Positions 49,816-52,159 of a stretch of DNA of 64,000 bases are shown here, piece by piece (positions within the stretch are counted from its first letter, which is position 1; each line of letters opens with the position of its first letter). Both the position numbers and the translations under genes were made by a program. Under the pieces are notes generated by a model that saw only the letters and a program-made list of their open reading frames with translations, did no database searches and was not told the origin of the DNA. The DNA comes from an unicellular cyanobacterium SU2 (GTDB lineage: Bacteria; Cyanobacteriota; Cyanobacteriia; Cyanobacteriales; Microcystaceae), in contig NEED01000078.1 of the NCBI GenBank assembly GCA_002110465.1, forward strand, positions 124,001-188,000, given 5' to 3'.

Positions 49816-49975
49816 TATGTTAATAGTTTTTTTTGTTTATTACTTTACTTAAGAACAGTAACAGATATTACTCAAGAAGAGCAAACCCGATGTTTTATCC
49901 GCTTTGATTGAAAATTAAGCTGTTAAATGTGATATGCTAGATAGGCTGTATAAATATCGCACATTCAGGACTTCG

Positions 49976-50001
49976 GGTGTTTCTAGTAGAGAAATACACC
50001 T
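49976..50001 (+). promoter_or_regulatory. Hairpin in the rpsB leader
   Basis: GGTGT...TTCT pairs with AGAA...ACACC (one small bulge) about 40 bases before the rpsB ATG; the AGGAG ribosome-binding site follows it. Ribosomal-protein leaders often carry autoregulatory structures, and this may be one. Confidence 0.4.
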
Positions 50002-50038
50002 GGATGGAGGATAAACCCGAATCAGGAGAAAATTACAA

Positions 50039-50881
50039 ATGTCAGTTGTTTCGCTCGCAGAATTGCTAGAGTCTGGGGTTCACTTTGGGCATCAAACCCG
50101 CCGTTGGAATCCCAAGATGGATCCTTACATTTACACGGCTCGGAATGGGGTTCATATTATAGATTTAGTGCAAACCGCCCAATTAATGGAGAATGCTTAC
50201 GAATATGTACGCACCTCTTCGAGCAAAGGAAAGCGGTTTTTGTTTGTTGGAACCAAACGTCAAGCAGCCGGAATTATTGCTCAAGAAGCCTCCCGTTGTG
50301 GAGCAAATTATGTTAACCAACGATGGTTAGGGGGAATGCTTACCAACTGGGAAACTATCAAAACCCGAGTGGAACGCCTCAAAGAATTAGAGTCCATGGA
50401 AACCAATGGAAATCTGGCTCGTCGTCCCAAGAAAGAAGGATCAATGTTACGGCGAGAACTAGGGAAACTCGATAAATACCTCGGTGGGATTAAAACCATG
50501 CGTAAACCCCCCGATGTCGTAGTAATTGTTGATCAGCGACGAGAATATAATGCTATTTCTGAGTGCCAAAAATTAGGAATTCCCATTATCTCTTTACTTG
50601 ATACGAACTGTGATCCAGACTTTGCTGATATTCCTATTCCGGCTAACGATGATGCTATTCGTTCGATTAAGCTGATTCTTGGTAAATTAGCCGACGCGAT
50701 TTATGAAGGTCGTCACGGGGAACTTGACTCTCAAGCAGATTATGAAGAGTTTGACGAAAACCTCGAAGGTGGTGATTATGACGACTATGATGACTACGAG
50801 GAAGAACAGGATGACACACAAACAGTAGACGAAGGAGAAACTACAGCTCAAACGACTCAAACCACAAACGAAGAGGAGTAA
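50039..50881 (+). CDS. rpsB: 30S ribosomal protein S2
   Basis: A protein of 280 residues. The S2 core spans residues 1 to ~228: [40 protein letters not shown], and [21 protein letters not shown] strongly acidic C-terminal tail of ~50 residues ([20 protein letters not shown]) rich in Asp, Tyr, Glu and Thr extends beyond the usual end. S2 binds the 30S subunit with S1. It forms the normal rpsB-tsf pair, but the 474-bp spacer is unusually long and rich in inverted repeats. AGGAG lies 8 bases before the ATG. Confidence 0.97.
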
Positions 50882-50910
50882 ACTGATCTGCCAACGGTTC
50901 TAAGTTGACC

Positions 50911-51304
50911 GAATGTCTCTCATAAATATTAGACATTCCCCCATCCCAACTCGATAACCTGCGATCGGTATTAGGAGTTGGGAAATCTTCAAAATGGTTC
51001 CAAGTTATCCATCGTCTGGTTTAAGTTAAACTCAGGTTAGATAAAATAACCCCTACTCAGTTTCCTTATGGTTCAAGAGAAATTGTCAGGTAGAACTTGT
51101 GATAGGATTCTAAATAGGTTGAAAACACCTACTGAGGGTCACTCAACAAGTTAAGCCCAACACCTGAACCGACAGGGTAATTAGGAACGATGATTAGGAG
51201 AACCTAATCAGCCTGGGAATCCAAATATCGAAACACCAATTCGATGGAACGGATGTAGCAGCAGTAATGTTGCTGAGAATCTAAGACGGCAACGACAGTT
51301 AGAT
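50911..51304 (+). ncRNA. Candidate structured RNA in the rpsB-tsf spacer
   Basis: The spacer holds an unusual density of perfect inverted repeats. GAATGTCT (50911) pairs with AGACATTC (50931). CCCAACTC (50945) pairs with GAGTTGGG (50975). CAGGT (51087) pairs with ACCTG (51162), enclosing AACTTGT (51094)/ACAAGTT (51146), which in turn encloses hairpins TAGGT/ACCTA (51115-51131) and TGAG/CTCA (51133-51145). TGATTAGG (51191) pairs with CCTAATCA (51203) around an AGAA loop. ATCGAA (51227) pairs with TTCGAT (51240). CAGCA (51259) pairs with TGCTG (51271). ATCTAA (51279) pairs with TTAGAT (51299). No coding frame spans it. It may be a leader controlling tsf or a separate RNA; I do not recognise the family. 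Confidence 0.55.
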
Positions 51305-51355
51305 CTTAGCGGTTCAAGTCATTATAGTTAATAGCATTAGGAACATAAAGTTAAC

Positions 51356-52159
51356 ATGGCGGAAATCTCAGCAAAACAGGTTAAAGAGCTTCGAGAAAAA
51401 ACAGGTGCTGGCATGATGGATTGCAAAAAAGCACTCCGAGAAAACCAGGGCGACATGACTAAGGCCACAGAATGGCTACGGCAAAAAGGGATCACCTCAG
51501 CCGAGAAAAAATCTGGACGACAAACAGCAGAAGGATTAGTGGAAAGTTATATTCACACGGGAGGCCGCATTGGGGTTCTCCTAGAAGTTAACTGTGAAAC
51601 TGACTTTGTTGCTCGTCGGGATGAATTTAAAGATCTTGTTCGCAATGTGGCTATGCAAATTGCCGCCTGTCCTAATGTGGAATATATTCAAGGGACAGAT
51701 ATTCCAGAAGCCGTCATCGCTAAAGAAAAAGAAATTGAGATGGGGCGGGATGATTTAGGCAATAAACCCGACAACATCAAGGAAAAGATTGTTCAAGGGC
51801 GTATTGACAAGCGAATCAAAGAATTATCTTTGATGGATCAACCTTATATTCGGGATCAAAGCATTAATGTTGAAGAGTTGATCAAACAAACCATTGCTCA
51901 ACTAGGGGAAAATATTCAAGTCCGCCGTTTTACCCGCTTTGTTCTTGGAGAAGGGATTGAAAAAGTAGAAAGTGACTTTGCCAAAGAAGTCGCTGAACAA
52001 GCTGGTCAAATAACTTCGGAACCTGAAGCTAAAACAGCGGAAAAGGTTGAAGACGTTTCTCCTCAACCCGAAGCTTCTACCAAAACGGAATCAACTCCCT
52101 CTCCTAAAACGAATACTTCCCAAAAGCCTCCCGCTAAAAAGAAGAAAAAGAAAAGATAG
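51356..52159 (+). CDS. tsf: Elongation factor Ts
   Basis: A protein of 267 residues. The N-terminal UBA-like motif ([20 protein letters not shown]) and the [38 protein letters not shown] blocks are canonical. The dimerisation/core region is shortened, as in cyanobacterial and Thermus-type EF-Ts, and runs to [17 protein letters not shown] near residue 205. The last ~55 residues are a low-complexity Thr/Pro/Glu/Lys tail ending in a lysine run. It exchanges GDP for GTP on EF-Tu. An intrinsic terminator follows at 52187. Confidence 0.97.

Follow-up and report, generated by a model that had tools for sequence, protein, structure and literature searches.

A probable stand-alone TnpB guide-RNA copy of IS200/IS605-type origin in front of tsf in a unicellular cyanobacterium

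Stand-alone omegaRNAs have reportedly been found for IscB, and the RAGATH-18-derived reRNAs of IS607 TnpB are said to be structured RNAs linked to that protein; unlike the latter, the RNA described here is matched by no Rfam family. Among IS200/IS605-type elements, IS608 has TCAA as a cleavage motif. The guide RNA of TnpB (omegaRNA or reRNA) is encoded over the tnpB 3' end together with the right end of the element, according to part of an account of ISDra2, of the IS200/IS605 group (PMC10097598). The RNA that we describe from the spacer between rpsB and tsf resembles it in that 26 of 71 members of its family lie over a tnpB 3' end and right end, in its multi-stem scaffold and in a guide position that immediately follows the right end. 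Set against the same partial account (PMC10097598), it departs in having no tnpB with it, a presumed promoter of its own and a host gene directly downstream; besides, the target at tsf is TCAT-like as opposed to the TTGAT TAM of ISDra2. Non-autonomous IS200/IS605 elements of the PATE/MITE kind, as far as they are covered in part of PMC7290912, are likewise short, with a transposon-type end, no transposase gene and multiple copies elsewhere, yet the tsf element is single and orthologous within its lineage, comprises a structured RNA with a presumed promoter and has no recognised left end. A looser likeness links it to TldR guide RNAs, as portrayed in a portion of PMC13418256, since a TnpB-derived guide RNA may here too be in host use; however, its neighbours are rpsB and tsf, no nuclease-dead tnpB-like gene is adjacent, and no target was found. 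The rpsB sRNA of Rfam (RF01815) belongs to the same operon, but its weak match (21.6 bits at a cut-off of 40, E 0.14) lies in the rpsB leader at 49958-50032 and not in the rpsB-tsf spacer. A search of the open-access literature met no published description of the spacer RNA, although we do not claim its absence from print.

We propose that a stand-alone copy of a TnpB guide RNA, of non-autonomous IS200/IS605-type origin, very probably lies before tsf. An element with its own promoter and an omegaRNA/reRNA, and with neither tnpA nor tnpB, would have entered the tsf leader at a TCAT-like target, in an ancestor of the genome studied here (G000) and four relatives of the same genus (G001, G002, G003 and G005). 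Transcription would begin just downstream of an extended -10-like motif and cross the right end into tsf, and the element would by now act for tsf mainly as a promoter and a structured 5' leader, rather than as a working guide RNA. The odds that promoter and leader are its present role appear to us evenly balanced, and we lean slightly towards the explanation as a whole, origin and role together. If it is true, the leader of an essential gene has taken in a transposon guide RNA.

The rpsB-tsf spacer and its features

In the window (the whole stretch of 64,000 nucleotides that was analysed), rpsB (50039-50881) and tsf are co-oriented on the + strand and leave a spacer of 474 nt (50882-51355) between them. 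An earlier note had described this spacer, with sequence and coordinates as we find them, as what looks like a multi-helix structured RNA, crossed by no protein frame and, by its motifs, not RNase P RNA, tmRNA or 6S. Indeed, no ORF of at least 40 aa lies inside it, and Rfam returned no match anywhere in the window at gathering thresholds and five at E <= 10, all under their own cut-offs. The structured region is real: the + strand folds at -135.1 kcal/mol, compared with -107 (sd 6.56) in 100 shuffles, none of which was as good (z -4.28), and for the - strand (z -2.60) 2 of 100 shuffles were as good. The fold density, said to far exceed that of other intergenic regions, turned out to be unusual but not unique, as the 250-nt segment 51061-51310 (z -3.67) ranks second among 256, with one of 255 evenly spaced segments across the 64 kb beating it. 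As for single helices, the tetraloop hairpin TGATTAGG-AGAA-CCTAATCA was located at 51191-51210, whereas the two helices thought to enclose a multi-branch junction find no support: CAGGT/ACCTG is lost in all four relatives carrying the element, and, of AACTTGT/ACAAGTT, the first half falls in the promoter-like block that precedes the conserved RNA and the second is altered in G002 and G003 (alignments judged by eye).

The features are collected in Table 1. The hairpin that follows rpsB is probably native to the spacer and outside the insert, and the second one may be the left end of the insert or a later addition. No left end with a hairpin was found to be shared among the copies.

Table 1. Features of the rpsB-tsf spacer and the gene downstream, in positions of the window
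Feature	Position	Strand	Basis or remark
Hairpin GAATGTC...GACATTC after rpsB	50911..50938	+	relatives with and without insert have hairpins at the same place (by eye)
Second hairpin CCCAACTC...GAGTTGGG	50945..50982	+	only in G000; gap in the alignment of G001, G002, G003 and G005
Stretch conserved in relatives, to the presumed transposon right end	51032..51317	+	blastn blocks begin at 51032-51043 in four relatives; left boundary uncertain
Presumed promoter block (18 nt), extended -10-like TG-A-TAGGAT at 51100-51108	51095..51112	+	identical in 5 of 5 orthologues
RNA core (model R1)	51124..51221	+	R1 match, E 5.1e-20, itself a seed row
Core helices H1, H2, H3	51133-51136/51142-51145, 51163-51166/51173-51176, 51191-51198/51203-51210	+	covariation, 67 distinct rows
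Helices H4 (51227-51232/51240-51245) and H5 (51259-51263/51271-51275)	51227..51275	+	judged by eye from sequence and alignment
Right-end signature: GAATC 51277-51281, hairpin H6 51281-51286/51304-51309, TTCAA 51313-51317	51277..51317	+	common to tnpB-overlapping and solitary members
Presumed guide position GTCATTATAGTTAATAG, in the tsf leader	51318..51334	+	inferred from where omegaRNA carries its guide
tsf (elongation factor Ts), downstream gene	51356..52159	+	ORF

An RNA family at tnpB ends and in solitary copies

Matches to the spacer were found in 10 of 59 genomes searched at the DNA level, the own genome included, tsf homologues being present in all 59. Four same-genus genomes (G001, G002, G003, G005) carry orthologues in the spacer itself, and further matches lie directly upstream of prk (G004, G006) or over a tnpB 3' end (G023, G033). 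A covariance model, R1, was built from eight aligned copies, none of which overlaps tnpB. RNAalifold gave this eight-row seed a weak consensus (-2.78 kcal/mol) with pairs unlike those recognised by hand, and three helices were therefore named by hand, from loci L008 and L001, and then tested by covariation. At E <= 0.001, R1 returned 72 matches in 24 of 98 genomes; among the 71 examined for overlap with tnpB (tblastn, E <= 1e-5), the 26 mentioned above cover the 3' end of a tnpB gene on the same strand and 45 do not. In a class-wide sample of 388 genomes, 15 held matches, and 6 of the 14 places examined coincide with the end of a long ORF whose tail looks TnpB-like by eye. Direct blastn with the spacer RNA aligned 48 nt at 85% to L007 and L042. 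Judged from these matches, the spacer RNA is homologous to RNA over the tnpB 3' end, as expected of an omegaRNA. R1 thus models a cyanobacterial RNA family that Rfam 15 failed to recognise at eight loci, seven of the R1 family and one with another scaffold.

In an alignment fitted to R1 (73 matches in 67 distinct rows, mostly transposon copies, and thus informative on the family rather than on the tsf copy alone), 85.6% of H1-H3 cells are paired as against 67.2% in shuffles. The covariation score of these helices is 0.448, compared with 0.159 (sd 0.009) when shuffled and at most 0.126 with partners slid, and 16 of their 20 pairs show changes on both sides. The family hence has a conserved base-paired scaffold, which bears out the multi-helix RNA of the earlier note; the five tsf-leader copies were judged by eye, with H1 (shortened) and H2 partly broken in the relatives and H4 and H6 mostly kept. 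A pseudoknot between GAA 51217-51219 and TTC 51313-51315 could form, similar to that in ISDra2 as partly laid out in PMC10097598.

On the downstream side of the core, GAATC recurs in many members, followed by a hairpin that varies in sequence and by TCAA, after which the flanks are unlike. Searched for with a pattern that was devised after seeing the sequences, this signature occurred in 21 of 24 tnpB-overlapping copies (two of the 26 were left out for short flanks) and in 30 of 41 solitary ones (four of 45 left out), with a shuffled mean of 0.6 in either set; its misses include four tsf-leader or prk copies (L017, L018, L019, L020). By this anatomy, the right end with its hairpin and TCAA-like motif is of the IS200/IS605 type. 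A TGnTAnnnT motif, likewise devised after the fact, was present within 60 nt upstream of 37 of 44 solitary copies (one left out; shuffled mean 4.8) and upstream of 4 of 24 tnpB-overlapping copies (two left out; shuffled mean 1.1).

Outside tsf, the first copies looked at were seven solitary ones that lack a left end. Six of them (L018, L019, L021, L022, L038, L040) are followed by a co-oriented ORF that starts 52-90 nt after the core, a rule that the seventh, L023, fails. Left ends are present in six other copies (L024-L027, L039, L041), none of which has a co-oriented ORF within 100 nt. In the prk leaders, the related core ends 52-54 nt before the gene; these copies, L018 (G004) and L019 (G006), are 72% identical to each other and lack the TCAA right end. 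Four same-genus genomes (L293 in G000, L294 in G002, L214 in G005, L194 in G004) have a more diverged relative some 600 nt upstream of an rne-like gene, judged to be RNase E/G by the protein's appearance rather than by a family search. A different mini-element, unlike in scaffold and endowed with a left end (L244-L250, L129, L226), occurs in several genera as near full-length solitary copies of about 80-87% identity, one of them on contig C15 of the window's own genome.

The insertion site among relatives

Of the 50 genomes available for the family, 45 were examined for their rpsB-tsf spacer; 34 of these have no insert and 11 carry one, of several scaffold kinds. The insert-free spacers measure 33-154 nt in 31 genomes and 209-216 nt in G013, G014 and G021, where no right-end signature is seen by eye. 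TCAA closes ten of the 11 inserts immediately ahead of the tsf leader, and G003 has lost this end. The element-free junction reads TCATGTCA in G010, G014, G029, G064 and G066 and CCATGTCA in G006, and differs in others; empty relatives carry GTCATCATAG or GTCAACATAG at the presumed guide position. G008, with a spacer of 91 nt and no visible insert, has GTGTCAAGATA. By this comparison the element is an insertion with element-free sites in relatives.

The kind of insert found in the window is that of G000, G001, G002, G003 and G005. A second kind occupies the spacer of G004, where it matches the right ends of the tnpB loci L154-L156 at 82-89% over 141-146 nt, and that of G059 (71-77%); a third is found in G061 and G068 (98.7% over the last 152 nt), and further kinds in G033 and G023 were not traced to a tnpB. 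Aligned in this way, one tsf site is occupied by at least three scaffold kinds, and with several omegaRNA-like inserts at one site, host use versus selfish retention becomes testable. At accC, two sub-families of element end at the same junction (L040 in G070, L205 in G066).

Conservation and competing explanations

Between G000 and G001, G002 or G005, the last 330 nt of the spacer are 84-86% identical, compared with 63-66% at fourfold sites of rpsB and tsf; against G003 the values are 75% and 58%. Element and leader (85-86%) are as conserved as tsf itself (85-86%) in the former three, where the spacer after tsf reaches 65-75%, and for G003 the three figures are 74%, 83% and 65%. Over the core, the rne-upstream copy is 71-72% identical between G000 and G002 or G005, versus 83% for the tsf copy. 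Among G001, G002 and G005, by contrast, the spacer (87-89%) barely exceeds fourfold sites (81-86%), and between these and G003 it lies at their level (76-77% versus 74-78%). These four genomes are of 2.5-3.1 Mb, those of G000, G004 and G006 of 4.6-5.2 Mb. Matches to the TnpB domain family PF07282 number 23 in G000, 37 in G006 and 22 in G004, with one each, interrupted by stops, in G001 and G005 and none in G002 and G003. If the explanation holds, element-free, intact and decaying states all occur among relatives, some of them without a TnpB match.

The origin from a stand-alone TnpB guide RNA is supported by the homology of the family to tnpB 3' ends, the covarying helices, the right-end anatomy, the element-free sites and the conservation above fourfold sites, and the promoter and leader role agrees with the invariant promoter block, the location ahead of tsf and, again, the conservation. 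Speaking against this explanation, scans of the spacer for -35/-10 promoters and for terminators found nothing, the relatives drift near the fourfold level, H2 is broken and H1 shortened, and the prk copies have no right end. Some of these points would suit a functionless relic, conserved by chance or through read-through with tsf, as would the loss of the right end in G003; yet G000 compared with its relatives stands far above fourfold sites, the next spacer and the rne-upstream copy, and we regard a relic as rather unlikely. Similarly unlikely, in our estimate, is a working trans-acting guide RNA, with which TnpB of the genome would use GTCATTATAGTTAATAG to cut insert-free alleles and so keep or spread the element. 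The 23 PF07282 matches of G000, its preserved scaffold and right end, the presence of several elements at the same site and a drift that is nearest the fourfold level where TnpB is absent or stop-interrupted would all agree with such a guide. It would, however, need a TnpB with a matching scaffold, and R1, which is not fully sensitive, recognised no tnpB-linked one in G000, either at the 9 of 23 TnpB loci examined or genome-wide at E <= 10, where it returned three places: the spacer, the copy upstream of the rne-like gene (E 0.006) and one within another ORF (E 0.63). None of the PF07282 matches of G000 is on the contig of the window. In G006, a weak R1 match (E 0.08) overlaps a TnpB ORF.

An old autoregulatory leader of tsf, or an independent sRNA of the host, with no tie to transposons would account for position, orientation and structure, but we consider it highly improbable, as the insert is absent from 34 of 45 family spacers and homologues lie before prk, upstream of the rne-like gene, elsewhere and at tnpB ends, the last of which already contradict it. 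The autoregulatory leader of the earlier note is not supported as an ancient trait; its tsf leader or separate small RNA may fit the present role, the transposon origin having been missed. Bolder, and to our mind very doubtful, is a scenario in which housekeeping leaders (tsf, accC, prk, rne-like) would repeatedly gain stand-alone TnpB-type guide RNAs and cellular TnpB-like proteins would use them as a network on host gene starts, the same nucleotide receiving more than one scaffold kind at tsf and at accC.

We also looked for a further genomic target of the presumed guide. Besides the guide itself, G000 holds one place with one mismatch (contig C82, no TCAT before it) and nine with two, and the reversed control pattern gave two; as the search pattern is A+T-rich, these places are unconvincing. 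Finally, about 40-45 nt of the spacer at 50993-51042 recur at 82-85% identity in G006, upstream of a psaM-like gene, and in G000, upstream of another gene (loci L011, 1501-1545, and L012, 1501-1540).
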